A stretch of 64,000 nt of DNA from Maylandia zebra (taxonomy: Eukaryota > Chordata > Actinopteri > Cichliformes > Cichlidae), in contig NC_135170.1 in assembly GCF_041146795.1 (NCBI RefSeq), positions 31,669,533-31,733,532 on the forward strand. The letters run 5' to 3'. Shown piece by piece: positions 14,933-60,817 of this stretch. The translations under genes and the position numbers were made by a program. Under the pieces are notes generated by a model, which had not been told where the DNA came from, searched no databases, and was given only the letters and a program-made list of their open reading frames with translations. How positions within the stretch are numbered: position 1 is the first letter of the stretch; each line of letters begins with the position of its first letter.

Positions 14933-15542
14933 TCAATCAAAGCCCAGGTTTGATAGGACCAGCACCAGTAATACCAGTGTCAAAGACGCTGACACCAGGA
15001 TGGAAACCCATGTCACGATGGAGATGATGCTCCATTTTTTGGCCTGTCTTAAATACTTTGCAGCTCTCCTTTCTCTTGTCCGCTTGGCTTTCTCTGCTTT
15101 GTCAGCATTCTCAGCCTGGTGAAGTAAAGATGTGACAATACTTTTGATTTAAAGATCATGCCTAACAAACATGATGAATGACTAGTGTATATAGTTGTAA
15201 AGAGATGTAGCAGATAAGGTGTTTGTCAAATATAAACATGCTTATCCTCATAAGAAAGTTTTCAAATGCTGGTTTGCTGCAGGTTGCCTGCCTGCAGAGA
15301 AAATAACTTACCTTTACAGAATAAATCAAGGCTCGGACTCCGAAGCAGGAGAACCCGCAGATGATACTAGAGATGGCCAGCTTCCTGTGGTACTTGTCAC
15401 TGCAGCAGGACGCAGGAGAGTCCTCACCGACACAGATTACTTGATTGCCAGTGTCCTCAGGTTGTTGAACACCTGTTCCTGGTACAGAGTTCAGCGGGAG
15501 CGCTTCCTCTATCGGTGCATCTAACTGATATGACTCTGACAT
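14933..15542 (-). CDS. tmem265: tmem265-like two-pass membrane protein, copy A
   Basis: Two coding exons on the minus strand, 15542-15312 (77 codons) and 15115-14933 (61 codons with stop), give 137 residues. The first exon starts just after a ttttgcag acceptor, so MSES is the likely start. The middle reads SCCSDKYHRKLAISSIICGF, a first membrane segment near residues 53-75, followed by an AENADKAEKAKR charged loop and a second membrane segment around WSIISIVTWV to the end. The layout resembles CD225/dispanin-type proteins and closely recalls TMEM265 (SIICGCSCLGVMALVF in human), a small protein of unknown function encoded in human 16p11.2. A noncoding first exon ends at a gtttgt donor at 17346/17345. 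Copy B at 19583-20539 is its tandem paralogue. Confidence 0.75.
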
Positions 15543-16059
15543 CACTGCAAAATATGCCGTCAAGTTAGAGAAAGTTTAAACTCAAAGACAAGACGTGGTA
15601 AGCTGTGCGAGACAACTTTAAGCAATGTAAGGATTCTGTGTGCACAACAGCACTGGAAGGATAAGTTAATGGTTTCAGTGGCTGCTTGATATGAATGTTT
15701 GTTTAAAGGATAAAAAGGAGTTTTAAGGAACTGGTTTCATTCTATCTGCTGGTTTCACCCTGCTTAGGTAAATGTTTATTTTGTTATTGCTCTGGCTTTT
15801 TGACTTATCACACTGCATTAATAGTCAGACAGAACAGTCCAAATAATCATCAAAGGGTTTTATGTATTAATTCTTTTAGCTATATTGTCCTTAATTTTTC
15901 AAATCAGTCTTTCCTTTGTGAAACTGGAGCGCTCGGGGTGAACTGTTGTTGCTGACCATGTGGCTTGTGTTACAATGAGTTAGCTTGGGGCAGCTTTAAT
16001 AATTAATTTCCTACAAGGCTGTACAAAATCCCACTTAAGAATTTTATATGAAATGCCTT

Positions 16060-19582: not shown

Positions 19583-20539
19583 TCAGTCAATCAAAGTGGC
19601 GAGATATGAGCCCAGTGCCAGCAGCAATGGAGCTGACACTAGAACGGAAACCCACGTCACGATGGAGATGATGCCCCATTTTTTGGCCTGTCTTAAATAC
19701 TCTGGAGCTCTCCTGTCTGTCGTCGGCTCGGCCTTCTCAGCTTTTTCAGCATCCTCAGCCTGTTAAAGTAAACACATGACAATATTTTTCATTTAAAGAT
19801 GAAATCAAAAAGAAGAAGCATTTTATTTCAGTTTCTCTTATTCTAAGGGAACATAATAATTGAATATGTAGATCTGAGGAGATGTGAAGGTTAAGATGTT
19901 TCTCATTAATGAGCTGTGTGTAAGTGGAAGCTGTGTTTTTGCTGCACACTCTGATGCTGTTCTCATAGGATTGGAAACAAATCCAGAGTGCACATTATGA
20001 ATAATAACTTCCGCAGAACATTGCTTTTCTTACAACATGAGGATCATACCCTCATTCACTGCACTGTGCCTGGTTTAGGGCAAGTTTTTTAACACACCTG
20101 TACGAACAGGTGATTGTAGAGCTGAAAAACTCTTTTAAATTGAAGAAGAGCTGCATGAAGAAATCTGGTTTCCAACAGGAATTACTTGCCCTTGTCTTGT
20201 GTCAGATAAAATTTGACTAAAGCATCCCAAACCAGCCATGACAGTTAATCTAAGTATGGTTATTCTCATAAGAGACGCCTGCATGTACTCAGAACATGAC
20301 TTAAAATAAAGTACCTTGACAGAATAAATCAAAGCTGGGACTCCGCAGCAGGAAAACCCGCAGATGATGCTACAGACGGCCAGTTTCCTGTGGTACTTGT
20401 CATTGCAGCAGGACGCAGTAGAGTCCTCACAGATTACTTGACTGCAGGTTTCCTCGGGTTGTTGAAGACCTGTTCCTGTTACAGTAGTCAGTGGAAGACT
20501 TTCAAGGTTGTTTAGATGGTTCTGGGATGACTCTGACAT
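19583..20539 (-). CDS. tmem265: tmem265-like two-pass membrane protein, copy B
   Basis: Coding exons on the minus strand are 20539-20315 (75 codons) and 19759-19583 (59 codons with stop), giving 133 residues. As in copy A, the MSES start follows a tttgcag acceptor by two bases. Shared features are SCCNDKYHRKLAVCSIICGF (first membrane segment), an acidic-basic AEDAEKAEKAE loop, and WGIISIVTWVSVLVSAPLLL (second membrane segment). The two copies differ most in the N-terminal 40 residues, in the loop, and in the last few residues (ATLID here, SNLGFD in copy A). Both frames are open and both keep their splice sites, so both may be functional. The noncoding first exon ends at 21393. Confidence 0.75.
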
Positions 20540-21392
20540 CTCTGCAAAATATGACGTAAAGTTAGGGAAAGTTTGACCCAAAAGACAAAAAACGAACATC
20601 TCAAACACGCTTAAACATTTTGTGTGCACAGAAACACTGAACGGACAGTTTGACGGCTGCTTGATAGACATGTTTGATTTTTCAAGATAAAAGCAACTTT
20701 AAGGAACTAGTTTGTTTTCAAAGGACAAACCCTGCTCAGGTAAACCGGTTTTCTCCACCACTGAACAAAACAATTTCGATTCAGATTCAAAAGAATTTAA
20801 AATAAATGTTTCCCACGGGTTTAAACACGCTCTGCAAAAAAATGTAGTGTATTCTTGAGAATGTGAGTGAGGACTGGGTATTTCCATAAGAAACAGAAAG
20901 TATATTTTGAAGAATGTTGCAATACAGTGAGCAGCGTGCGTAACAGTGTTCCCCTGTTACTAAAAAAATAAAAAAATAAAGTAATAGCTTGAAAAACTAG
21001 CTTGGTGGGCAGGTTGTTACGGCAAGTTGAAGCCTGAAGTGTTACTTATCTAGCCTCTGATTTAAAAGAGCCGGGCGGGCGACACCTACATTGTGCATTT
21101 TTTGGTAAGAGATGAGAAAATGTATGAGCCGAGTGTAATATTACACATGCAGGGCTGCGAATCATTTGTAGTGAAGAGGGAGAAAACTCCGTCCTCCACC
21201 CTTCACATGAAGTGGAATACAACAGTAAACATGAGGCGATTAAGTAAGCTTTGATCAAACACTGCTGTACACCAAAATCTTAAAGGTGGTTCTACAAGGC
21301 AAACAGAGTATTAACAACTAGGGAGATAAGATTTTTTTAATCACTATGACAACCACTTAGACCGCATTCAAAGGCTGAAATCAAGTACAAAC

Positions 21393-31784: not shown

Positions 31785-34700
31785 ATGGGGAGATATACGT
31801 GTGCCTACAACTGCGACACCTCGAGCGATCCAGACGTAAAGTTTTTTAAGTAAGTTTTCGACAATAGCGCTGCTTTTTGGTTAAACTAAACCAACAGACA
31901 GCTAGAAGCACGTTTGTAAAGTAACAGTGGCTGACAGAACTAGGCTTGTATCAGTGTTAAGACTCAAATTTTCCACCTTTTCTCAACATTTTAAGCCCAC
32001 ATAATTAGATCTTTTTCTGTATACATGGGAGTGCAGTTCGGAGTGCACCTGGAAAAGTTACCGAGACGTGTACACAAGCTCACTAAGCAAAAAAAGGGCA
32101 TAAACAAATAAAGTTTATCACTGTACATTTTGCTGCAGCATTATTATTTTTTTTTATGCAGTTGCAATAGAGGGGTTTTATTCACACTAAATTCTAAGTC
32201 AAATCGTTTGAGAACCACTTGTGAGCTGTGTGCTGTAGGAGTGACTTAAGGGTTTAAGGTGCTGGTGGGAGTGTATCAGGGATCAGCCCTGAGGTGCTTC
32301 TTTCAGCAACAAACATCATAGTCCATAGTTTTCATGGACTGTGATGCAGGGAACATTGTGACCTATACTGACAGTAAGGAACAGGTGTGAAGATGTGGAC
32401 TTCAGAGAGAAGAGAAATGAGAGGGATACAGGTGTGATACTGCAAGAAGTAGATGTACTGAAGATAGATGAGTTTACATACCATCCAAAACAATAGACAG
32501 TGCATAAAAGAGGTGAAGAACAGAGTGCAGGCAGAGTGGAGTGGGTGGAGACAAGTGTTGGGTGATTTTTTTTATTTTTTATTTTTGACAGGATAGCAGC
32601 AAGGGTAAAGGGGAAGGTTTACAAGATGCTAGTGAGACATGTTATCATTTATGGTTTGAAAATGGTGGCACTAACAAAAAGACAGGAGGCGCAGTTTGAG
32701 ATGTTAAGATTTTTATTGTAAATGAGCAGGATGGACAGGATTAGAAATGAGTATGTCAGAGGGACAGCTGAGGTTGAGTGTTGGGAGACAAAGTTAGAAA
32801 GCTGCATTTTTTTAGATGGTTTGGACATATGCAGAGGAGGGACAGTGGATATATTGGACAAACGATGCTTAACATGGAGCTGTGGATTTGGTAAAGGAGA
32901 ACATACAGAGGGTTGCTGTGACAGAGGAGGATGCTAAGCATAGGTTGAGATTGAGGCAGATGAACTGCTGTGGCGACCCCTAAAGGCAGCAACTGAAAAA
33001 AGAAGAAGAAAAAAGACCACTTAAGATCCTCTAAATTACATCTATGAGACAAAAATACTCCAGATTAAGATCTTTAACAGTAAATTATGCTCTTATTATT
33101 ATGTTTTTCTGTTGTTTAAGTTTAATTATCTAGCTTACGTTCAGTATATCACGCTGGAAATACTGAGTGTTATATTACATATAGCATATCATAATTAGTT
33201 TTAACAGAGTTAGTCAACAGGTAAAATTTACTGAACTCTACACAATTTTTAGTGAGTTACTTTTCACACGGGAAAAAATGTTTTCTGTGTGTGCATGCAG
33301 GTTTCCCCTGTACAATCCCCGAAAACTTAAAAAATGGGTACTGAACATGAAGTGGAAGGACTGGACGCCGACTCGCTTTTCTGTTCTGTGCATCAATCAC
33401 TTTGAGGAGCAGTACATTGACAAAACGGGCAAAAGTGTGACACTTCGGGAAGATGCGGTTCCCACCATATTTACACCGACTGACAACACACAGAAAAAGA
33501 AGGTTAGTGTGTATCATAGATAATTGTTGGCATCATTTAGAAATAAAACATTTGTGAAATATTTAAAGCTGCATAATGAAACTCCTCCTGTTTTTCTGTT
33601 TAAACCTCAGCGGCTTTTTAAAAATAAAGGTGTTGTTACTGTCTCCTTGATACAGGCTGCCATTAACCCGAGACGTAAACGACACAAGGTGAGCTGACCC
33701 AGACAGTTAGCTTTTTATTGTTTAACGTTTAATGTTATTCATTTTTCTAAATGCATTACGTGTTGTTTATTTTATTGTGAAAGCAGCAACCTGGTGCTAA
33801 AAGCTCAGAGAAGGATTTGGCTGCATCTGCAACATCAGCTCTCCCTGCAACAGACGACAGTGTCCGGGCCAAAGAACCCAGCCAGACAGACCAAGAGACA
33901 TCTGGGTATGTAACTACACACAAGGAGACGTTTACTGTCCTAGTCCTCTTTTCATAAATCAATAATAAGCAGTAATGCTTCAGTATGCACAGTACGGATG
34001 CCCTTCATGAGGGATTTGTGTCTCTTCCTTGTTATCTTTCACTTTTTAGGCAAATGTGTGAACAGCTACACTATGGAGCCAGTTTCTTAAATCATTAATT
34101 ATACGTCTAATAAGTCAGTGTTTACAGTTTGAAGACTGCCATTAGCTTCTTGTGCATATTTGCTTGTTAATTATTAATAATACATTTATTTGTAAAGTGC
34201 ATATTTACAAAGTGCTTAACCGTTTGAATAAAACCACACATTAAGGATAAGTGTACATAATTAAACATGCAGTTAGTCTTACATTCATTCCTGCATACAC
34301 ACATTCAAAGAACCAAGGGCCAAAAACAACAGTCAAACAATTAAGGAAAAGCGGAGTTATGAAGCGTCACTGAAAACCAACCATAAAAAATTCAGCCAAC
34401 CTGATAAGCTGAGGAAGGTTTAGCAGTGGCAACCTCAAAAGCATTATTACCTCTGGTTTTAAAGTAAAGACGTAAAACAGTTAAAAGACCTTTTCAGACC
34501 CAGATTACCCTCTTCAGTCTAAGCAGATCTGCTGTATAGGTAGGAGCCAAGCCATGTAAGGCTTTATATGTTATTAATAACATTTTAAAATGAAGAAAGG
34601 TTTAATTTTTGCAGTGTTTGTTCAATAAAGGAAACAAGGCTGGATGAGCTTAGAGATCAAAATTTAGATTGTGGTAAATAATATTAGCAGCATATTCCAT

Positions 34701-37700
34701 ATTATTCTCTAAAACCAACTTCCTCCTGTTCTCATCGCTCCTTAATTCACTGAATCTGCAACTTTTTTGTTATATATTTGCTGAGCTTTTAACATTCACA
34801 CCATAATGAGGTTATGAGAAACAGTTTCTAGGTGTCACAGATTGATTCAGTTATATTCCACTGTATATTTATAGTGACCGTGTAGTTTGGGAAAGAAAGC
34901 CATATTGCTGACCAACTTGTAGTCTCGAGTTTAGTTTTAGTGCACTTCTTATCGTTCACACAGGTGTACTTAAAAGTGCTGCCTTGTAGTCATAAGCTAT
35001 ACATTCAAATATGCACATAAATTCTGAAAACAAAGCATTTTTCTTTGCGTGGTTTTGATGCTTGATATTTATTTGCTGAGAAAAATATTTGTTTTGTGCT
35101 CAGTGAGGGACATTTAAGATTTGTTAGAAGTTTTAGAAGAAAAGCAAAAGATTAAAAAGGATAAAAGGACTAAACATGTTACTTCTGACTAGTCAGTTTC
35201 TCTCAGAGGTATAAAAACAATCTGGTTTGTCAGCTGCTACCTGCTGAAAGATTGTGGCTCATAAATGTCTTTATAGAAGCAGTTAGCATTATACAAACGC
35301 CTCAGATTTTAAATTGATATATATTTAATGCACAAGCCTAAAAACCACAGTAATCTTGCAAAAAGGTTGTTTTGGATGGTACAGTTTGCAGGTATAACAC
35401 AATGTCAAACCTAAGTTGTTGTTTTTTTTTTCTTTTAAAAGCTGATAAAAGCATTTAAGATGACATTTTCCTGCTGTACACGCATTTAAAAACAAATTTA
35501 CAGTCATGGTGGTTTGCTGTATTGGTCCATTGGAGATCTGCCCACTGGTTAGGTCACTAAACCAGTTTTCAGACCTAACCAAAGGTCTCCTTGGGACTTG
35601 TTGTGTTGGCAAAGATGACTTTCTGGTCGATCACAGGTTTTCTCTTGGAAAAAGGTAAAATCAAATCAAACACCAGAGAGGTTTCTTTGGTGCTTCTCCT
35701 TCATAAATTTAAATTTTTTTATTTATTTTGTTAATAATTTCTGTACAGATATATATTATCGTTTCCTTAATGTTTTAACTTTTTTTTCTGTTTTAATGAT
35801 TAGAGATCCCAAAACGTCAGAGAAATGGAGGATTATAATTGATGAAGCACTGATGAAGATCGATTCATTTCCACACTTTTTTCATGGAGATTACTGTGTA
35901 CCACAGGTAAATGGAATTGTATTTTATACATACTGATCACTGGGATAACTTAAGAGTTTATGTTTAGCTAATCTTATGGCATTTACGGCATATCCGATAT
36001 GTTTTATCTTGTTGTTTATCTTCATTAGTGCGAGTTAATCTATGTGTGTGTTTCCACCTGCATCAACAGAGTATCCACTGGGCTCCAGATAATAATTTCA
36101 GTGTAAGTAGAATATTTTCAGTCTACTGGGGATGTAATAATTCTCTGAAACTGGATGAACGGATGAACACTAAAACCACAACCCTGATCACTTGATTGGA
36201 TCATAAACAAAAAATAAACTTTTATTCTCATATATTTCCAGTTCACCCACTACTGGGACATTTTTAAACAGAATTCACCAGACTAGCTTTAACCAAGGGC
36301 TCCACACGGGTATCAGGACACTAAGTGTTGCGCACAATTGTGTCACAGTTTCCTGTCTCTGCTGCATTATTCTTACACCCCTTTAATCTGTAAAGGTTTG
36401 TCTTTTATATCGTGGAGCACTTAATTCACCTCCTCTTTTGTCATTTTTACAGCCTGAGGATAAAGACAATGAAAACATTATAGAGGTACGTCTGTTGTAC
36501 GATTACCTGCAGGTGTTACTCCAAATCCAAACCAGGGTTTTGGGTGGTTTTGTCCCTCTGCCTGATGCATTGTCCTGACTGCAGGTGAAGGAGCCATGGG
36601 AGTGGCTTGCTCTGGATGTCCGAGGACCGCTGCCTCAAACAGTAAACGGACACAAATACATTTTGACGGTGACCGACTTCTACTCCAAATGGGTGGAAGC
36701 TGTGCCGATGACAGCGTGCCTCCCTTCAGATGTGGCAAAGAACGTCGTGGACATCATTGCGCACTTTGGATATCCACTGAGAATCCTCTCTAGACTGCCT
36801 CTTGACATAGTCCACAAAGTGAGCGCGCACACTTGATTAATCTGCCTGGACTGTTTTGCAAAACCTGATTTCATATCAACATCAAAAATGTAGTTGAAGT
36901 TTAGAAACTTGCATTTTTTAAAGTGCCTTATAAATCTGACTTGGAATTAGTGCCTGAAAACCAAACCCAAGGCAGTTAAACCCATGTGTAGTTATTATAG
37001 TGACATGCTTTTAATTTAGAAGAGCATATTTAACCTTCACAAGACCAACTCGGCAATCATATAATGCATAAAGAGAAGCTAATATACTCCTCCTTATTTT
37101 CTTTCACACATATACTGTTGTGGTTTGTTCCAAATGGGTAACAGTTTTGTCTTGTGGTACTTGCATGAATACAGTTGTTTTTTTTAGAGTTCCAGTATAA
37201 AAATATGGTGCTGAGAATGAAACTTTATCTATTCTGTGAGATGTCATGATAATTAAATGCTAATGAAATAATATTGGTTTTATTTTTGTTAAATTAAACA
37301 TATACTCTGAATTGTCCAGTATAACATGTTATACTGGAAATGAATTACCACCAGCTGAAAAAGCCCTTTGTGTCTTCCAGCTCATAATATAATGCATGAT
37401 ACTTTTTTTTGTTATAAACTAATGTTATAGTGTGTCCTCATTGTCCAGTTTCATACAACTGTATACTGTGTGAATGTCTTCCCGATGACAGATCAACCGA
37501 GAACTGAAAGATCAGCTGAAGGTTGCTGTTGCTCTTGTGGTCTATCATCAGCAGACGGGCATCGCAGATATGATCACACCACAGCTGATAGACAGGTCTG
37601 TAAAAAGCCAGGGTGTGCTAATATTTGTTTTTTGTGACATTTTATAGTCTTGTTATGCCTTTATACCTGTAGTTTTGTTTCTTTTGGTCCTTTTCCAGAT

Positions 37701-41344: not shown

Positions 41345-45443
<4,099 letters not shown>

Positions 45444-48596: not shown

Positions 48597-50412
48597 ATGG
48601 ATGTCAGTGAATGTGTTTTATCGGCAGGCAGGGCCGTGCTGGACATGGTGGAACGGGAGTGGCAGCCTCTGTCTGCGGGCGAGCTGGAGCACAGGCTGGA
48701 CCAGGCGGTGGAAGAGATCCTGGAGTCACAGCTCCTGGCAAAACTGGAAAAGCAGTCCCATCGTCGTCCTCCTCCTACCAATACTATTTACGTACAGTTA
48801 CTACAGAATCAGGTGGGGCCCCAAGTTTTACACACAGCAACAACATCCAGTCCGTCCGAGCAGGAGGAAGAGAAAGAGGAGGAGGCTGCAGAGTCCCAGG
48901 AGCAGGTTGATACTGTGGATAATCCAGCGATCAAGGTAGTTTTGTGGCTTTAGTTTTCCTCTGAGAAAGCGTTTTACAGTTTTCAACTACTATTAAAAAC
49001 AATAGTGACAATTTTTGGCCAGTTTTTTTAATTTTCAAACTCAAATTTAACATGATATTCAAAAATCAATTAAAAAGAATTTGAACCTGAATATGAGATA
49101 AACTAAGGAATTTCTAAAGTGTACCAATCATGTATAACAATGCCTTTAATCAAATTATAAGCTCTGCATTTCATATGTTTGTCATTACTCCTTAATCTTA
49201 TAACTTTTTGCTGGATTCATTTGTTTTATCTCACCAAAAAAAGTGGAAAATTCATCTTTTTCTTTGAGATGTGGCTGACATCCCAGTAGAAAACCAGAAA
49301 CTCTGCATGATCCGGAAGGAGAATAAAGTGGATACATGCCTATTAAATACTGTTGTATTTTGTTTGTGTCTCTGTGTTTCACCAGTACATTTCAGACCTA
49401 CTTCAAAGCTCCAAATCAAGGACACGAATGGCTGGACGGGCTCGCTTATCAATGTCCCACACTGTCCTCCTGTCTCTCACACTGCTGTCCGAGCGAGTCA
49501 GTTACCGCACTGTGTCCCGCCGCTTCCAGCTGGAGAAGGGAAACATCCACAGGATCTTCTTCTCTTTCTGCCAGCGCATAAACATGCTGGAAGAGAGGCA
49601 CATCAAATGGCCAGCTGGTGTGTTAATTTGTTGGGTCATTAATCATATGTGGGCAAATTATGATGATGATAATATTTTCTCTCTGTTCTTCAGGGAAAGA
49701 GGCTGTAGAGGCACTTTTCCCATTCTCCAATCTAATTGGAAAAAAGGAAGTAGAAGGAGGACAAGGTGTTCCTCAGGTTCTGGGAGTGTTGGGACACACC
49801 CGGATCCCTATTCGCCTGCCTATAGGGAAACATGATGTGGAGAGCACCATACCTGAGGTGAAGAGAATGAAGATGGAGGCCCCTCCTGACTCTTGGTTAA
49901 ACCTTGAGCTTGTGTGTGACATTAGAGGCCGGTTCTTGCACTGCAGAATCAGTAAAGGATCTCATGTGGACAGAGGTCGTGCTCTAAGAGACAAACTCAA
50001 ACAGAACCCTGACCTAATGCCTTCCAGCTCCTGCCTTGTGGCCAGAGCTGGCTACCCACTTACTGATCAGATTTTTACCCCGTACACAGGAAGTCACGGA
50101 CCAAGAGAGGCGCTCTTTAACAAGACGCTGGAGGAGCATTTTCAGATCCTAGATCAGGCCATTGCCGATCTGAGAGCCAGGTTTCGGAGGCTCACGTATC
50201 TGGATATTGGAAACTATGACCGAGCCAGAGCTGTTGTGCTGACTGCCTGTGTGTTGCATAATGTGTTTCTGGACCTAGGACAGGCGGTTCAAGGAGAGAA
50301 GGAGGAAGCCACACCCCAAGATGAAGAGGGGGAGGCGGATGACGAGGGTGTATGCAGACGTGACTCCATTACAGATTTTCTGTTTAAAAGCTTTAATCAT
50401 GGAAACGCGTGA
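48597..50412 (+). CDS. HARBI1-like domesticated Harbinger transposase without catalytic triad
   Basis: Three coding exons, 48597-48935, 49386-49617 and 49694-50412, give 429 residues. A helix-turn-helix-like part reads VSYRTVSRRFQLEKGNIHRI (near residue 145-165), as in PIF/Harbinger transposases. The DDE_Tnp_4-like core follows: VLGHTRIPI where active enzymes have (A/V)-I-D-G/C-T/M-H, LVCDIRGRFLH as the second strand, VARAGYPLTDQIFTPY where enzymes have GDSGYPL, and LDQAIADLRARFRRL where enzymes have VERAFGxLKxRFR. Thus all three predicted catalytic acidic residues are changed (D to G, D to R, E to D). The frame is open and spliced, and an AATAAA at 50428-50433 gives a 15-base gap after the stop. 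It is best read as a host gene derived from a transposase and probably without nuclease activity. N-terminal residues 1-113 are unique, with a Glu-rich stretch. Confidence 0.8.
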
Positions 50413-51948
50413 ACATTTCAATTTGTTAATAAACTTCAGTTGTGCTCGTGATCCTGGCATGTTGCATTCATTAACATTTGAAGGTAGTGACTGAACCCCT
50501 AAAAATCAACAGCAAAGGTTTCCCTGAGGTCATAGAGCGAGAGCGGTGAAGGGATCTCTGTGGGAAAATGGGCCTCCCTCGCTCTGAGACTTCAGTAAAC
50601 ACATTCCAGGTTAAATTGAACACAGCATTAAATTTATTATGTAAATCACTGTCAATATTAAGAGTCAAAAGAGGATCATCCAAGATGTGCTCATTAGGTA
50701 ACAACTTGTCAAGCTCTTCACTAACCAGAAGGTGACACCAATGTTTATATATTTTTTTAATACACGCTGTAGTGTATGCAAGGCCGGGATGGTCCATTTG
50801 GTAAAGTAAATCTGTTGGGCATCTTTATTGGCCTTTAGACAATAATTCTGATGGCAAAAGAACCAAATGGGACAGGCGGGAAAAAAAAGGAATGGCACTG
50901 TGTGTAAAAATCTGGCAAGTCAAATATGTGGATCTACTGCGGTGACCCTTTGTGAATAAAGGAGCAGCTGAAAGAAGATTACTCTTAATCCTTGACAAAG
51001 TTAGTTATAAGTAAATTCTTCTCTGTGTTCAAATCAGGCACCTGGTAGACAGGAAGACCTAAAAAAGAGCCTAAATTTAAAGTTTAGAAACCACAATAGC
51101 ATGAAATGTGTTCTGTCATGAAAGTATCGTCACATTATATGTCGCAAAGCGCTGTCCCATTTCTACTTTCCTCAGTTAGAGCCCTTGCAGTCTCACACAC
51201 TCAGTCACCTATGAGGTGTTTAGGTCTTCTCCCCCTGCATATTTCACCTCTAGCTTGAGCAAGTTGTCATATTAGAGTAGTAATAAGAAGATGCACGGGG
51301 GTAACTTCCAGTATTTTTTGTACCATTCTCTAAGGTAATAGACAGCCAGAGCCTGTTTCTGTGCTAATGCTCACACTGCATTATTGCTACTTATGCTAAT
51401 AATTTGTTTTAAAACTAAATAACTATATGTGCTGGAAAGATTTGCAGGAAGCTTTCAGCATAAAAAACACACAACAGAGACAGAGTTATAAACAAAGAGT
51501 ATCTTATTAATACTTTAACATTTATACCAGTATCTTCATTAATCCCATTACTGAAATCTGTATTGTATTTGACTGCTTTTGGCCCGGCAATGGTTACTTT
51601 ATTTACGTACAGTTTATTTTCGTACAGTTCTTTAACAGATGGGGGTGGATTCCCCATTTGTGTGTACTCTTCAACTTCATCCAAGTTTTCTATTTTGGTA
51701 TAAAAATAAAAGATTCTTACATTATTTTGAGCACCAGGAGGAAAAAAGAGACAGGTTTAAAGAGAACTGTAATCTGCCTGCTGTGTTAAAGGTGAGTCTG
51801 GCCTCATACTGTACACCTGCTAATCCAAGCTACTCTGTAAACTGTAACGGTAAAAATGTGAAAAAGTCTACAAACATTAGACATTGCAAACGAGCTGTTC
51901 TTCTCATGCAGTGTTGGAAGGTCTTGGTAATTTCGCGTTTCCTCTCTC
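50413..51948. other. Spacer between the convergent HARBI1-like and Myb-like genes
   Basis: Contains the polyadenylation signal of the plus-strand gene (50428-50433) and, for the minus-strand gene, TTTATT at 51613-51618 (AATAAA on the minus strand). An 89-codon minus-strand open frame at 51415-51684 has no recognised homology. Otherwise AT-rich; no transposon terminal repeats could be identified by eye. Confidence 0.5.
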
Positions 51949-53220
51949 CTAATGTCCATCCTTTGAAGTCTGTGTGCCGTTCTTCTGAGCCAGGCTGGAG
52001 ATGGCTTGGGCCAGGTTGTTGATGGCCTCAATTTTTCGCTCCTCCAGTGCTTTCTGCTGCGCCCACATGTTCATCTTCCTCTCCTGCAGCTCCATGTACA
52101 GCTGCAGGACATCCTGCGGAGGCCTGGTGAGGCAGGGAGCAGCTGTTGCAGGAGGCGTAGGGAGGATAGGGGTAAACCTCTTGCTCGCTATAGCTTTTCC
52201 TACTTTGGTCCCGCTGAGTTTGGCCCTGCGCTGGGCTTCGATCTCCTCCCTGCTCTTACCCAGGACTTCGTGCATAGCTTTAAAGAACTCCCAGTGGACG
52301 CTGGTCACTCCCAACCTCTTGGCCCTCTCTGCGTTTTTTCTGTATGTGGCCAGCATGTTTCTCCACTTGAGATCACATTCATACGCCTTCACAGTGACAT
52401 CAGTGACCTCTGACTCCCTCAATTTGGCATTGACCTTCTCTGCAACCATTTCCCAGAGTTTCTTTTTCTTGCACACTGGCTGGTCAAAGGCCTGATCCAT
52501 TTCAAGCCGGGTATTGACTAGATGCCATGTAGCCTGAACTGTCCAGATAAATTCTAGGAGTGAAAAAAGGTAGATGATCAGATCGACTGCTTTTTTTTGG
52601 AGTTATTAAAGACAATGCCTTGGTCTACAGTACAGTTTTTCTTAAAATGCTGAACATCATGAGTACAACTACAACTGCAATACAACTACAATTAAGTTTT
52701 TCTGCGTTATGGTATACTGCACTATATTTTGGATGCATATCTTGTTCTTGATCTATATTTTAAAGCTATAGTCACATATTAAGTTTAAAAATATAAATAA
52801 AACTATTCCAATAATAATACTAATAAAACCAACCATAAAATAATGTACCGGTATATGATTTTGTATTAAGTACTACATCAAGTACTTTTATTGTAGGTAC
52901 TTTGTATGCTTAACTTTTACTTAACTGAAAGGGTGTGTAAATGCATATTTAGCTACATTGCAAAGCAGTTTTTATTGAATACAAATTTTGTGCAGTGCTA
53001 CTTTTAATGCAATAAACCAGGTTGTTGTTGTTCTTGCCCCCCCCCCCCCCCCCATTCTCATTCTCCACCCCACCCCATACAAAAAAAGAAAAAAAAATCC
53101 TGGAAACGTTCCTGCTGAGTACTAACCTGCTTTTGTTTTATCCGTATCCACACTGGACACGACCGTTTCCTTTCCTTCCACTTCGGAGTTTTGAATCACA
53201 ATTGTCTCGATTACCTCCAT
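51949..53220 (-). CDS. Myb/SANT-like DNA-binding protein, Harbinger partner type
   Basis: Two coding exons on the minus strand, 53220-53127 and 52553-51949, give 232 residues. After an acidic N-terminus (MEVIETIVIQNSEVEG), a Myb/SANT-like trihelix domain spans about residues 32-115: FIWTVQATWHLVNTRLEMDQ, then KKKLWEMVAEKVN, then VKAYECDLKWRNMLATYRKN, showing the spaced tryptophans of the family. A proline-rich linker (FTPILPTPPATAAP) and a C-terminal helical segment (LQLYMELQERKMNMWAQQKA onward) that may dimerise follow. This architecture is that of the second, Myb-like protein of Harbinger transposons and of NAIF1, which binds HARBI1 in vertebrates. It is convergent with the HARBI1-like gene, 1.5 kb away. 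Its promoter faces armc5. The intron contains an 18-base poly(C) run at 53037-53054. Confidence 0.75.
53037..53054. repeat. Poly(C) tract in the Myb-like gene intron
   Basis: Eighteen consecutive C residues on the plus strand (G-run on the coding strand), about 70 bases into the intron beyond the donor of exon 1. Simple homopolymer, likely unstable in length. Confidence 0.95.
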
Positions 53221-53371
53221 CTTATTAAAAGCACAACCATTACAGTTAAAGTTGTTTTTTTTAATTTACTAGCGGTGTATCTATCGCGGAATTTAACAAC
53301 ATCCAAGAGTCACCGATGCCCTCTCTCGCGTCGAGAAAGACGATGACTATAACAACGTCGCTTGGTAGCTT

Positions 53372-53570
53372 GGAAATTGTAGTTCATTTTGGTTATTACG
53401 CCTATTCTTTTTAGTATTCTGGACTAGCGGATGAACTACAATCCCTAAACTCTTTGACTCTTTTAACGTAGGTTACGATTTGTCGCGATCATGGGGGGTG
53501 TAGTTTTTCAAAAGGATGGTTCGCATAAGAGGAACTGGGCGCTATCAAATTCGAACTACACGTCCCAGAG
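53372..53570. promoter_or_regulatory. Shared promoter region with ZNF143/THAP11-type ACTACA motifs
   Basis: Four ACTACA cores followed by C-rich text lie within 200 bases between the divergent Myb-like gene and armc5. On the plus strand: actacaatccc at 53435-53445 and actacacgtcccagag at 53555-53570. On the minus strand: ACTACAATTTCC at 53383-53372 and ACTACACCCCC near 53503-53493. The consensus of the SBS element bound by ZNF143 and THAP11 is ACTACAATTCCCAG. The second plus-strand site fits best. Binding is inferred from the motif alone. Confidence 0.6.
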
Positions 53571-54144
53571 TATTTTTAACCGACCCACCTCTTCACTCCC
53601 TGCTCCCTCCCTCGGCCGACCCTGTTTTGTTGTTTGGCTAAAGATGGCGTTAGCGGCTAACCCACTCGATTGCAGTTTGTTTCACAAAAATTATTCGGCC
53701 AGTGGTAACAAAACATTGATAAAATAGAGATTTAATTCGTCATTTTGTGTGTAAAAAATATATTACACCGAGAAAATACACGTCCACTTGGTCGATTAAC
53801 GTTTGCTTGGCCTTCTTACGATATAGGCCAGTTTTAAAGGGAGCGGACCGAAGCCGTCGGAACTCCATATCCCGTCGGGGAGTGCGGCGTCAGGCGGTAA
53901 CACTTTCCTTTTTCATGCTGGTATCTGTAGTTCTTACCACACAAGTCTCTTTTTTCCGGAAACTTTAAAGACAATGAACTAAACCAAGAGTTGAGTATAT
54001 CTAAGTGGAAAGGACATGGTATATAATTTCTCGGTGTTTTACTGGAAACGTCCAGTGATGCCTCGCGGCGCCTGTGATATTTGTTTTAATTGAGGAGGAC
54101 AAATTAAAAATAAGTACACCTGTTACCTGGAAATCCGGGGGGCC
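53571..54144. other. armc5 5' flank and 5' UTR
   Basis: Moderately GC-rich sequence upstream of the armc5 ATG with short open frames but no recognised protein. An 'aagatggcgttagcgg' at 53641 resembles a YY1-type AAGATGGCGGC core, which often lies close to a transcription start; armc5 transcription may begin nearby. Confidence 0.4.
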
Positions 54145-57100
54145 ATGGCTGCAGAATGTGACAGAAAAAACCCGAGAACACCTTCCAGGGAAGGACAACC
54201 ATCACCAGAGTCTTCTTTGACCTGGTGCTTGACTCACATCTCCAAATCTGGATCGGGGTCTGAGCGTCAGGGACAGTCAGGCTCAGGCGGTGCCAGAGAA
54301 ACGGACAAGAGGTCCAAAGTCTCCCAGTGGCGAGCGCTTGTTGCTATTAGGACGCAGCACATCAAGGGCGGCAAGGCTGGCATTGCCAGATTCAGAGGTC
54401 AGGGTGGTCTCCGGCACCTGTTGGATCTGATTAAACACCCAGAGTGCTCGAGGAAAACTCTGGATCTCGCTCTTAGCATCCTGGGCAACTGCTGCACTGA
54501 GCTGGAGACACGAATAGAGGTGAGACAAGAAATAATAGATGAGTTTGTTTATTAAAGTCACTAACTTTTAAAATGTTTTCCTACTTTCCTACAATATCAG
54601 GTGCGTAAACTTGATGGGATAAATATTGTAGGTAAGTGGTGATTTATTGTTATACTATATATTATACTTTTTAAATTTAAGCAATCTTTATCATAACTTA
54701 TATCTGAAAAATGCCTGTTGTAGTGGACATCCTTAAGAAAAATGTGTCACTGGAAACAGTCCTGAACCGAGCAGCCCGCGCTTTAGGGAACTTGGCCATG
54801 GATCCAGAAAGCTCTGCACTCATCCACTCTGCAGGTATGTCTGACCTGCTTCTGTGTGTCACATCCACCTTTGTAGCTGACAGCATTTAAAATGAGCTTG
54901 AAAGCTTCCAAATGGGCTTTTTTAGTTGTAGATATATTAAAATAATAATAATAATAAGTGCTGTAACAGACAGGCAAAAGTAGAGTGCTCAAAGGGCAGA
55001 TTTAAAGTCGATCATTAAGGTCAAACAGGGGAAAGAAGACAAACAAAAAAACTGAAAGCTGATAACCAGACAGTACAAAGATATCACATGTAATGCCATC
55101 ACATAAAAGCAAGTCTATCAAAATGTGTTTTCTTTGACCTGTGAATCTATATAATTTCTCCTCTGATTATAAATCGTTCTTATTATCACACAGGTGGTGT
55201 TCCTCTTCTCCTTCTCTGCGTGTCTCTTTCATCTGCACCGTCCTCCCCCACAGCTGCTCCACCCAAAGATGCCTGTCCCAAACTTGAGTGTGCTCAGTCT
55301 GCTACTCGAGCCCTTCTCTACCTCTGTGATACGCCTTCTAATCGCCTTTCATTGCTCACCCAAGGGACCCTATCTGCGCTCACCCCTCTTATTGCACCAG
55401 AGTATCCCCAGGGGTTGAGGCGAGCAGCTCTCAGGACTCTCCATGAGCTCACCCGGGGCTGTGGTGTTGAATGTGCCAGGGAGGTGTCTCGTTCCGGGGT
55501 CCTCGCTCAGCTGGGTGTCATGGTGACAGGAGAGTCTGGTAAACCCTTTGAAGAGTTGGCACTGAAAACATTAGCCAATATGTGCTCTCAGGGTTGCCTA
55601 CGCCCTCTCGTGGGGTCACTGGGAGTCATCCAGAAGTTCACAGAGGAGGTTAAAAGGGACCCACTGAAGTCAGGACTCTTCCTCAAGGCTCTGTGCTTGT
55701 GCTGCAAAGAGGCCGTGAACCGGGCCAAGGTGAAAGAGAGCGGCGGACTGGAGGTACTGATTGGCTTTTTGTCGGCTCATCAGAGTCATCCTCTTTCCCG
55801 TCTCGCTCTTATGGCCTGTGTAGACTTTGTTTTTGATGAATCTGCCATGGAGCAGCTGCAGGAGTTGGGGCTGGTTCCTCTTCTTGTTGCACGGCTAGTT
55901 GAGCTCACCAGAGGAGAGGAGCCATTGACTGAGAAGATGGACGTGAGCCTCTCCTCTAGTACGTCTCCCACCGAGCTCCTGTCTTCATTATGTTTTGATT
56001 CCTTTGATTTTCCTCCTCCCGAGGGACACAAAAAGGAAGAATCTGGTAGGGAGCAGGGCTCATCCAGCTTTTTAAGTCTCAGGTATGGAAAAAGGAAATT
56101 TATTTTTTAAAATTTAGTTTTCCCAATCCACTGTTTTCTTCTGTTTGATATTGTTTACAATTTCATTCCTTTCTCCAGGTCCTGGTTGGTGTCTGAGGGT
56201 TTGATAGCTTCTGAAGGGGACCTTCTAGATTCTTCTAATGTTGATGGAGAATGGGGGAGTCTTCAGATCCCGCCATCTTCATCACCTCAAACCCCTTCCT
56301 CAAACCCATATTCTAGTTCCTCTCTTAAAAACTCTTCTTCACCCAACTCAGCTATTTCTTCTGCTTCTAAAAAAGCACCTCACTCTTCGCCTTTGTCTTC
56401 ATCATCATCAAAAGTCACCAATCTGCCTCCCTCCAATACGCTCTCACCACAAACCCAGCCTAGTTCCTCCACCATCTCCTCTCCCACTAAAACAAGCCAA
56501 ACCCCCGTTTCTCCATCCAAGTTTTCATCCCCACTCAGACGCAGGCCGCGGGCTCAATCAACAACGTCTTTGACTAAAGTCACACTTGAGACTCCTCCAT
56601 CTGTGCCTCGCGCATTAGCTTTCCATCACCCTTACCACCCCGAACCCTGGACGCCAGAGTCACCCATCCTGCTGCTGCTGTCGCGCTTCTCCCACGCCAC
56701 CGATCCAAGTGCTGCTCTGGTCAGCTCAGGCGTCATGTCCGGCTTGCTCTTTTACCTTACCCAGCGTGAGGATCCCAGCAGCAAGTGCTTCCGCATGCTT
56801 TGCCGGCTGAGCTGCAACCCGAACTGTTTGCAGTCGCTTCTCCGAACGGGTTCTGTAGCGCTCATTCGCCACCATCTCTGCCAGAGAGAAGAAGGATTTG
56901 AAGGAGGAGACAGGCAGACGGACAGAGTGAAAGCCAAAGTTAAACAGCTTGGTGAGATGAACACAGTCATGTTAAAATAAGTGAAACCTTATACAAGATT
57001 TAAATAATGCACACATAAGTAATTAAATATGCTCACAGGGTAGAGGTGCAGTGTTAGTCTTTTACATTTAAAATCTGCTTATTTTGCTTTATTGGAATCA

Positions 57101-60100
57101 TTTTTATTTGAACTGAGAAAGCCAGGCTACAAGTGAAATGACTCCTAACAAGTAACCCTGAACTTTACACGGATACACTGAAAATTCAACTAATTCAATT
57201 GCTGCTTGGTCACATTTGGTTAACTACAGGGACGATATTGATTCGCTGTTGATCAGAATTTATCTCAGGAACCGTCTTTTGTTCGATCAAATATAATATC
57301 TGGTCTTTTTGTTTTTTTATGTAAGACTAAAGAGTTTATAATTGTGTGCTGACTTTGCAGGTGTGGCCCTTCTGAATAACCTGCGTGTCCAGTGTGAGTC
57401 TGGATTTGGCTCTGGGGTTCTTGCACATGTGATGCTGTCTGGCTCTGACTCAGATAAGCTGAACTGTGCACTGTCTCTGCCATTAATCAGCAGGTAATTA
57501 TTGGATGTATACTGACAATGTATTCATAAAAAAATACTAAATGTATAACAGTAGGGCTGCAAGGATTTATTGAGTATTTCGAAAAATTCAGTTCTAAAAA
57601 GTTCTCGGCACACATTCTTTGCTTCGACACTTCGTTTAAGGCACGGCCCTGTAGCGGAACATTGTCACCATGGAAACGTGAGCGCTTCTCCCAGACTTGT
57701 GACTTAAAAAACAGACGTGCAATACAAACATATTTAGGAGCAGCATGTGAAAAAAAAAAAACAACTCAGCTCCCAATTTTAAACAAAAACACAGATGACC
57801 CAACAGCAGCAGTGATCATGCTACCACAGTTTAATGGGGAGGTGGAGTCTGTTTACATCCCGCGAAGAGCAAAGAGGCGGCGTCATTACGCGACGGTGAG
57901 CTCAGGTTGATTGAAAGAAAACGTGTTTCTCGTGTCCAAAACAGCAGGCTCTTCATCAAACCAACTCATCAACAAACTGTGATATGAAGAAAAACTATCT
58001 TTGTAGCTGCTCCATTCACCGCCATTTGTTTTACACAGAGAAAAATCTGCAGCAAGCCTCCAGGAGTTGTATTAAAATATGCCGATGAACTGGTAACTTA
58101 GTCTGATACCAGACTAGTTAGATTATACAGCTCGCTGACGGCTGACGGCAGCTGTCCTTTTTTACATGGATGCGAACAGGGGTGAGTCTAAACGGGGGCA
58201 TGGTGTGCACTAGACCATTTATTTCAAAGCTTATGTTACATTGTTCAGATTCAAAGTGAAATAATCTGAAATACTGTCTCAATTAAATTGCGTTAATATT
58301 TAAAAATATACAAATGAAAGCTTTTTTTTCACAAGCCAAAAAAAATGTACATGGGCCAGTAAAACTCTGAGCCACTGACCCGAGGGATCTTAGGTTGGAT
58401 GGTGAATGTTAATGTTCATTATCTACACCATCATAACCTCTTGTGTTCAGCAACACAAAAGCTTTGCATCAATGCACGGGGCAAACTTCAAAATATTCAG
58501 ATATGCTTGCTTCTCTTCGTTGCAGCCACTACATTTTCCTTTTTCCTTACAGACGCAAACTCAGTCATTCACTTGCACACTTTAACACATAAAAACACAT
58601 GTAGAAAAACTCAAAAAGCCTTCTAAGAAGACAGTAAAGATTCATGTTTTATGCCTTAGTTTATTTTGCATATTCATCTTATTTTATTTGACTATACTTG
58701 AGAGTATTTTTTAAAATATATTTTTGCATTTAAGACAATTTTTTAAATTTAAAACGTAAATAAAAAAGGGTTTGTTTTGTTGACGGATAAGACAAAAAAC
58801 ACGGGAACACAATGAGCAGTTTGTTTTAAAAAAAACCTGTATTTTGTTTTCCGCATTACTCATTAATAAGACAAAAATATTTCTACTACTCGATTAATCG
58901 ATGGAATAATTGATAAATTAATCAATTAGTAAAATAATCGATAGCTGCAGCCCCACATAACAGTAATCTGTGATGAATTTTGAAGTAGACCAAATATAGT
59001 GGATTCTATTCTACTTGCATTATATTTCTGAAATATGGAAATCTTCTATCTGAAACAAGCTGTTGTAGTTCTTCAACCTTTACACCAAATATCCTCAGAC
59101 TGCCTGTTTCTTGTAAACAGAAGGCTTGAACAGCAGGCAGGCGGGGCTTCTGTTCTCTTACCTGCGTGCCTGAAACAACTATATTAGAAACTGCCAGACA
59201 TCCTGACATCTTGTAGATCAGATAAAGAAAAGCCTGAAAATAAGCTTACTGTAGTGTGAGGTTTTTGTCTCAGGGATTACTTGTACATATGCTGACCTTA
59301 TTATTTGAAACAATTTCCTTCTTGAATAGGAGTATCCATCATTGTAACAGTGTGTATATGAGAGGGAACAAAGAAGGTCAGAATAGACAATAAACACTCA
59401 CTATTAATGTTTTTACCTTTTCTTTTTCTCGTACAGCAACAAGTCACTGCTGAAGAAACTTCTTCTGGACAGCGGCGGGCTGCTCTTGGCCCTGCGGCCC
59501 CTCAGCTGTGACGACGATGATGGTGCGGACGAAGACCACCCTGCTGAATGTGAAAGACTGCTTTCTGACTTTTTGAATTCTCCACATTCAGGCGTGACCT
59601 CACATCTCCACTCGCTGTACTTCTCTCTCCTGATTGGATGCCTGTCTGCTCTCACAGGTACCATTAAAACCGAGCTCGACAAAAAACATTCAATTTCAGT
59701 TATAAGACAGTCGATCAGTAGCCTTGGTCATTTTTCTCCGCCTCCCTCTAAAAAAGCTCGGCTAGCAGACACATGCCCTTACAGCATCTCTAACTTTGAT
59801 CTGTTCTTGCTGCTGGATGATGGGACCCAGGTCCCAGCCTGCAGGGAGGCTGTAGCTGGGGTTGAGGGCACAGGTGGGGTTGGCTCTGAGTATTTCAGGG
59901 CCCTGTTGAGAGGTGGATTTGGAGAAGCTCAGGGCAATTCAAAAGAAGCTATCCCCATTAAAGATGTCAGCAGAGGTGCATTATTACCAGTGCTACATTA
60001 TCTGCATGGATGTCGCTTTACTAAGGGTGAAGAAACAATTAAGGAAAGGGAGGAAGGAAGGAAGAGTGGACAGTGCCAGATTTTGGACAAATTGGTGCTC

Positions 60101-60817
60101 GATGGTCTGAGTCTCTATGAAAGCGAGACAGAGGAGCGCTCGGAAGGAAATGTGGATTTCCAGAAAACTCCGTTATGTGAGATGATGATTGGAGGTTGCA
60201 GGTTTTTGGTAAGTGAGCTACAGAGAGACTTAGAGGACCTGTGTGTGTCGTTTCTCCTGTCCTGCTGTCCGAAAGCCGCTAATCGGACTACAACAGAGGC
60301 CAACGCTGAAAAGGATGCATCCAAAATGGACCACGAGTGCCCCGAGTCTGCTGAGGAAAGCCTGGCCAATCGAACGTCAGAGCTAGAGCTGACAGGATTT
60401 AAGATGCAAACTGAAAAAACAAAGAAACCAAATTCCCTGCAACAGACAGACGGTAAGAAAACAGTGGACAAATCAGTCAGTTCAGAAGAGCTGACTTTAA
60501 GACCAAAGAGCTTGATTAAAGATTCAGAGCAGCTTCCTAAATCTGCGGCTCAGGGCTCTCGCTCCTCGGAAACATTTGCTGAAGGTGGTGTTCTGGCTGC
60601 TCTGCTGCCCCAGTTGTACTGGTTTTCCCAGCGGTACAGCTACCCAGCACTGGGCCGGGCTTGCCTGTCCTTGCTGCTGGGCTGTCAGGACTGTCCTCGG
60701 CCCTTCCTGTCCTCCTCCATTGCTGGGGACTGCCTTCGCAGACTGGCCAGAGAAGCTGACTGTGCAGAGACTCTCAAACAAGATCTGTTAAGTTTGGTCT
60801 CCGTAGCTTTGACCTGA
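54145..60817 (+). CDS. armc5: armc5: armadillo repeat containing 5, BTB protein
   Basis: Seven coding exons, 54145-54519, 54601-54631, 54724-54834, 55194-56082, 56179-56951, 57361-57493 and 59437-60817, give 1230 residues (human about 935). Armadillo repeats cover roughly residues 60-470 (LVAIRTQHIKGGKAGIARFR, ALSILGNCCTELETRIEVRK, RAARALGNLAMDPESSALIH, and LALKTLANMCSQG). A BTB-like domain starts near residue 885 (SNFDLFLLLDDGTQVPACRE, then YFRALLRGGFGEAQ and PVLHYLHGCRF). A Ser/Pro-rich linker of about 130 residues in exon 56179-56951 and an acidic, lysine-rich insert of about 130 residues after position 60280 account for the extra length. In mammals ARMC5 is a CUL3 adaptor that promotes degradation of RPB1, and loss-of-function variants cause adrenal nodular disease. 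The human gene lies next to COX6A2, as here. Confidence 0.92.
57552..58955. mobile_element. Non-autonomous hAT transposon, about 1.4 kb, in armc5 intron 6
   Basis: The ends are tagggctgcaa and gctgcagcccca. Flanks are tataacag (57544-57551) and cataacag (58956-58963), an 8-bp target duplication with one mismatch. The interior has 'ggcacggccctgtagcggaa' and 'attaatcgatggaataattg', typical of fish hAT families with TAGGGCTG ends. An 82-codon frame at 57662-57910 resembles part of a hAT-derived N-terminus at best; no full transposase. It lies between the armc5 exons 57361-57493 and 59437-60817. Confidence 0.75.

Follow-up and report, generated by a model that had tools for sequence, protein, structure and literature searches.

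Can both protein genes of a single transposon be kept side by side by the host that captured it? This question is raised by a locus of the cichlid Maylandia zebra, at which a gene with similarity to Harbinger transposases (gene A) and a gene encoding a Myb/SANT-like trihelix protein (gene B) are found between elob (elongin B, at 42.2 kb) and armc5. We analyzed this locus in a window of 64,000 nt (assembly GCF_041146795.1, NC_135170.1:31,669,533-31,733,532, forward strand), to which all positions given below refer unless another contig is named. Papers cited by PMC number are drawn upon in excerpts. The Myb-like protein of Harbinger elements binds both the transposase, whose nuclear import it permits, and the element ends (PMC9179366, PMC9710019). 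Based on the observations described below, we consider it likely that A and B represent both protein genes of one ancient PIF/Harbinger transposon, which lost its ends, could no longer move and was retained by the host in the form of two linked single-copy genes.

Two intact, convergent genes with the domains of a Harbinger element

Gene A is located on the plus strand and consists of three exons separated by GT-AG introns of 450 and 76 bp. Exon 1 (48597-48935) is an open frame with a GT donor and encodes amino acids (aa) 1-113, an N-terminal extension with an acidic stretch; exon 2 (49386-49617), with an AG acceptor and a GT donor, covers a helix-turn-helix-like region; and exon 3 (49694-50412) contains a degenerate DDE core, as judged by its DDE_Tnp_4 match and by alignments. 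The resulting frame of 429 aa ends at 50412, and an AATAAA signal (50428-50433) starts 16 bases past the stop codon. Gene B is encoded on the minus strand by two exons and comprises 232 aa. Its first exon (53220-53127) is open up to a GT donor and contributes aa 1-31 and the first base of codon 32, while the second (52553-51949) starts at an AG acceptor and encodes the trihelix Myb/SANT domain (aa 35-128), a proline-rich linker and a charged, helix-like tail, the latter assigned by eye. For both genes, splicing is inferred from the splice sites and the open frames. Stop-free runs of this length would occur under random codons with a probability of ∼1e-9 for A and 1.5e-5 for B, so that the intact frames hint, if indirectly, at purifying selection on both genes. 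The two genes face each other with 1,536 bp between their stop codons, in agreement with a sequence-only reading of the window, which had described two intact, convergent genes 1.5 kb apart. Protein A (48.5 kDa) is acidic, with an isoelectric point (pI) of 5.9, and protein B is basic (pI 9.1).

The same reading had assigned a Harbinger-type core to A and a Myb/SANT-like trihelix to B, and both assignments were borne out by Pfam matches above the curated cut-offs. Protein A matches DDE_Tnp_4 at aa 259-380 (E 3.1e-10, 40.3 bits versus a cut-off of 24.8); the weak HTH_Tnp_4 match in exon 2 (E 0.27) stays under its cut-off. Together with its position in the Harbinger/HARBI1 clade (support 100/100, see below), this identifies A as derived from a PIF/Harbinger transposase. 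No solved structure related to A was found up to E 1. Protein B matches Myb_DNA-bind_4 (E 3.6e-12, 46.9 bits versus a cut-off of 27) and MADF (E 1.5e-5); among solved structures it shows one weak trihelix match, to GT-1 (E 0.019). B thereby carries the domain type of a Harbinger second protein, as a Myb_DNA-bind_4 neighbor accompanies at least 11 DDE_Tnp_4 matches in the genome.

Loss of the catalytic acids in protein A

An alignment with transposases of the same genome revealed that the DDE triad is fully replaced in A: the D, D and E residues correspond to G224, R308 and D344. The first site is part of an IDG motif, and at the second the elements read LADGGYP and A reads VARAGYP. For a broader comparison, we used 35 columns without variation among the element transposases; six rows were aligned, two of which represent one family, and five or six of them have a residue in each of these columns. 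A retains 12 of these 35 columns, including G221, P233, V264, P312, N333 and H379, whereas the harbi1 protein of this genome retains 20. The 12 kept columns are L, P, F, G, V, N, A, R and H residues, with none of the catalytic acids among them. As read from its sequence, A appears to be cleavage-dead and not an active PIF/Harbinger transposase. The catalytic losses most likely came after the capture, because an element without catalysis would be unable to spread on its own.

A and B look like single host genes

We searched the 962-Mb genome with both proteins; scoring was confined to the best candidates, so that all counts are lower bounds. With protein A, at least nine matches were obtained at E ≤0.01 (98 of 264 candidates scored), three of which are its own exons; the other six show 26-28% identity at E 6e-4 or weaker. 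Protein B recovered only its own two exons at E ≤1 (7 candidates). Close copies of A or B were not found in the genome among the best candidates scored. Likewise, no inverted repeats of at least 14 nt flank the two genes between positions 46500 and 54000, a search from which old, decayed ends would escape. The sequence-only reading had named near-identical copies and recent terminal inverted repeats as results that would speak against it; neither turned up. In these searches, the pair shows neither the terminal inverted repeats nor the close genome copies of a mobile PIF/Harbinger element, and A and B look like single host genes and not like a mobile element. With no close copies among the best candidates scored and no flanking inverted repeats of at least 14 nt, we reject a live or recent element. 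A search for relatives of A in viral contigs gave 69 pattern matches, none of which was confirmed.

The pair keeps the layout of the Harbinger elements in the same genome

We then compared the arrangement of A and B with that of Harbinger elements. A first set combined 59 Myb_DNA-bind_4 matches with 150 scored DDE_Tnp_4 matches, to which the gene A exon, scoring below those 150, was added by hand. Among the matches listed, and excluding A/B, 11 pairs of the two domains lie at most 5.1 kb apart, and all 11 are convergent. Nine of them show domain gaps of 2.0-2.3 kb; the other two are separated by 3.1 and 5.0 kb. One more neighboring pair among these matches, 10 kb apart, is arranged in tandem. 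Between A and B, the gap is 1,855 bp if counted from where the exon-3 match ends; counted from the DDE domain end, which makes it comparable with the other pairs, it is 2,002 bp. A second comparison, of 94 HARBI1-like transposase matches with 150 Myb_DNA-bind_5 matches, yielded 24 pairs within 6 kb among the matches listed, again all convergent (24/24). No Myb_DNA-bind_5 match was listed within 1 Mb of A/B.

The element loci that A matches best are L020, L021 and L023, with L022, which form its nearest family. In three of these four loci (L020, L021 and L023), the transposase is accompanied by a convergent second gene with a similar trihelix end and charged tail, which was not seen in L022. 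A and B are thus adjacent genes in element layout, as would be expected of a linked PIF co-domestication. Because the pair keeps the convergent orientation and the spacing of the Harbinger elements of its own genome, capture of a single element is the best reading.

Evidence against a single capture and the origin of gene B

Several observations weigh against this conclusion. Since the convergent pairs represent copies from a small number of families, they are no independent cases, and the introns of A differ from those of L020-L023. The branch of A is long (2.8 changes per column) without supported grouping with any element family; the grouping with L020 and L022 reaches a support of 39/10. 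A crude nuclear-signal motif is present in both proteins (KRMK at position 247 of A, KKKK at position 60 of B), so that the pattern reported for insects, with a signal in one partner only, is not seen here. The most serious points concern B. Its best pairwise matches are the host-like gene C4:13787530 (score 77, z 11.6), the Myb of element L029 (64) and plant GT-1, and a tree that is mostly without resolution, in which its branch is long, groups it with plant GT-1 (85/89). The second gene of the L020 type scores 40 against B, lower than several other Mybs, and no Pfam match was obtained for its tail frame. Judged by these comparisons, the sequence of B does not link it specifically to the element Mybs examined; its origin is therefore argued from where it lies, from its orientation and spacing, and from the type of its domain. 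The proposal that one element was captured whole is accordingly supported in part: the single host genes, the element layout and spacing and the lost catalytic acids of A agree with it, and the missing tie between B and element Mybs does not.

This leaves an unlikely, if serious, alternative, in which A is a domesticated Harbinger transposase and B an unrelated host trihelix gene that came to lie next door by chance and shares a promoter with armc5. The affinities of B just described would fit it, B being nearer to a host-like gene than to the best element Myb, as would the 5′ end of B, which lies inside a CpG-rich region adjoining armc5. Chance does not easily account for the arrangement: a rough estimate assuming uniform density gives a probability of ∼5e-5 that an unpaired Myb_DNA-bind_4 locus lies at most 2 kb from a particular gene and in convergent orientation. 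The real gene density would raise this figure several-fold in gene-rich DNA, but the spacing of A and B also matches that of the elements. Moreover, some animal trihelix genes may themselves derive from Harbinger elements.

The best match of B among those compared deserves separate mention. C4:13787530 (in L060) and C4:13777333, on the same contig as A/B, are trihelix exon copies that are 97% alike and ∼10 kb apart. No DDE_Tnp_4 match was listed within 12 kb of the C4:13787530 gene. It is probably built like B, from a trihelix exon and a frame encoding a charged helical tail, joined by eye, and possibly represents another domesticated Myb-like gene. A literature search for zgc:152938, a guessed name for B, gave nothing.

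Protein A is distinct from HARBI1

A second alternative, which we regard as very improbable, explains A as an old duplicate of the HARBI1 gene without a separate capture. Using a human HARBI1 query, we located harbi1 of this genome on another contig (C22:42070888-42072795, locus L057), with up to 81% identity to the human protein in one exon. In the trees, A falls into the same large clade as harbi1 (100/100), on a long branch and without support for its position within the clade, and a grouping of A, harbi1 and the HARBI1-like element L055 is compatible with the data (p-value of the approximately unbiased test, p-AU, 0.477). Both genes also have an intron at nearly corresponding positions, a few codons apart at most (codon 191, phase 1, in A; "FNR|D", phase 2, in harbi1); as the alignment decides whether the two sites coincide, we did not count the intron as shared. 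Against a duplication, A and harbi1 as sisters are marginally rejected (p-AU 0.043), unlike A as sister of L042 (p-AU 0.26), and the A/harbi1 identity of 20.8% (60/288) lies inside the range of 17.0-24.5% between A and the elements of the clade. Instead, harbi1 groups with L055 (81/99 and 93/91), which has a Myb_DNA-bind_5 neighbor, whereas B is of the Myb_DNA-bind_4 type, and harbi1 keeps both catalytic Ds. A being HARBI1 itself is ruled out by the location of harbi1 on C22, its grouping with L055 and the marginally rejected sister placement. Trees with harbi1 and Harbinger elements, as the sequence-only reading had suggested, place A in the Harbinger/HARBI1 clade, and give neither A nor B a closer placement. 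At its third catalytic place harbi1 shows a D, where human HARBI1 presumably has an E. No fish literature treating armc5 together with harbi1 was found.

Finally, a recent or decaying Harbinger insertion instead of a host gene pair would explain the element-like gene order, orientation and spacing, but with close copies and flanking inverted repeats not found in the searches described above, the catalytic acids gone and the frames intact, it is barely credible.

Flanking genes and promoter region

The pair is embedded between two genes with strong matches. An elob exon-containing frame is located at 42203-42436 (plus strand; Elongin-B, E 5e-24), and the exons of armc5 extend from 54145 to 60817 on the plus strand (ARM_ARMC5, E 3.7e-54, for frame 55145-56110), with the first ATG at 54145 assigned by eye; the frame at 59408-60817, without a Pfam match, was also given to armc5 by eye. 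The stretch from gene B to armc5 (53100-53999) is CpG-rich, with observed/expected ratios of 1.03-1.32 versus 0.44 for the window. Because of this stretch and the distance of only 925 bp between their start codons, gene B and armc5 probably share a bidirectional promoter, a prediction from the CpG ratio and the start distance. The motif ACTACANNTCCC, which we take to resemble a ZNF143 site, has nine matches with at most one mismatch in the window, five of which are clustered at 53372-53931, in the stretch that separates gene B from armc5. The nine matches represent a modest enrichment over the window (9 versus 3.1 expected, equally high in 1 of 100 shuffles).

The locus had been described as a conserved block of the 16p11.2 type. 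ARMC5 is firm; the prr14-like label rests on a Tantalus match below the cut-off (E 0.0097), and the tmem265-like one on inspection by eye. The human 16p11.2-type locations of the block genes are our assumption. The tmem265-like label refers to two similar frames on the minus strand (15162-15575 and 20135-20698), which encode small membrane-like proteins without a Pfam match and perhaps reflect a tandem duplication. In the same block as A/B, a THAP-domain exon-like frame was found at 33185-33523 on the plus strand (PF05485, E 9.4e-12); the THAP domain also occurs in some DNA transposons. A short plus-strand frame at 36579-36836 shows similarity to the integrase core of retroelements (rve, E 0.003, below the cut-off) and is either a remnant or part of a host gene.

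A possible division of labor between A and B

If A and B derive from one element, their products could have retained the old contact between transposase and Myb-like protein. The basic trihelix protein B would bind DNA and would carry the acidic, cleavage-dead A to chromatin through this interface. There, A would serve as a protein-binding scaffold and not as a nuclease, after the model of ALP1/ALP2 and HDP1/HDP2 of plants. By analogy with these systems, a working partnership in which B recruits the scaffold A is plausible, if slightly short of an even chance.

Comparison with known systems

The closest vertebrate parallel is HARBI1/NAIF1. HARBI1 and NAIF1 are located on different chromosomes. 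Their products, a transposase-derived and a Myb-like protein, interact and are taken as co-domesticated (PMC9710019, citing Sinzelle 2008). A and B share these domain types, but differ in being linked and in the Myb_DNA-bind_4 type of B, whereas harbi1 of this genome lies on C22, has both Ds and has its nearest element in L055, with Myb_DNA-bind_5. The idea that the pair is a linked counterpart to HARBI1/NAIF1 is upheld insofar as A is distinct from harbi1, but is not new in kind, as insect precedents exist. These are the linked PIF co-domestications DPLG7-DPM7, APLG1-APM1, APLG2-APM2 and LPLG2-LPM2 (PMC9710019). According to excerpts of that paper, the transposase- and MADF/Myb-derived genes are adjacent in most species, no trace leads to elements in the same genomes, and terminal inverted repeats and target site duplications were not found for the lepidopteran pair. 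The insect cases differ from A/B as independent events in other animals, and in the variable orientation of their two genes (PMC9710019). In Arabidopsis, ALP1/ALP2 and HDP1/HDP2 combine a transposase-derived protein with a Myb-like partner in chromatin complexes and provide the model for the mechanism proposed above; they too are independent domestications, in plants (PMC9710019).

Among fish, Harbinger diversity has been surveyed (PMC9179366), and two genes invite comparison. ADF-1L of the miiuy croaker is a MADF-protein gene attributed to a Harbinger element, but has different neighbors and, in the excerpt of the source, is given no transposase-derived partner (PMC11893794). The second, nxhl, is the zebrafish gene zgc:113227 (record NM_001014319.2), a maternally expressed DDE_Tnp_4 gene whose morpholino knock-down leads to vascular defects, and according to the authors the only zebrafish homologue (PMC8558974). 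Its microsynteny is drawn for gar, zebrafish, pompano and stickleback, and the pompano gene is described as "two exons with two introns", compared with three exons and two introns in A. The nxhl fusion protein of 62.0 kDa exceeds the 48.5 kDa of A, which is compatible if the carrier supplies the remainder. A difference is that the authors treat nxhl as a HARBI1 homologue, which A is not, and the excerpt mentions no Myb neighbor (PMC8558974). As domain, uniqueness, intron number and size are compatible, A may be the orthologue of nxhl/zgc:113227. This would question the reading of nxhl as HARBI1 and make B a candidate partner of nxhl.

Among the matches listed from titles and abstract openings of the open-licence literature, there was no linked vertebrate Harbinger pair, and A/B is perhaps the first such case. 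Tentatively, and with somewhat more doubt than belief, we propose that Harbinger genes were co-domesticated in vertebrates a second time, independently of HARBI1/NAIF1 and with the two genes remaining linked. In this proposal, a dead transposase, identical with the maternal nxhl/zgc:113227 reported to affect vessel development, and an unnoticed trihelix neighbor would form a DNA-binding complex conserved across teleosts. If this is true, the two genes of a captured transposon would have stayed linked in a vertebrate, and one could ask directly whether the host maintains a dead transposase and its Myb partner together as one unit. With the Myb_DNA-bind_5 type of HARBI1 and the Myb_DNA-bind_4 type of A/B, two different Harbinger lineages would then have been captured, and co-domestication would have occurred repeatedly in vertebrates, as has been argued for insects (PMC9710019).

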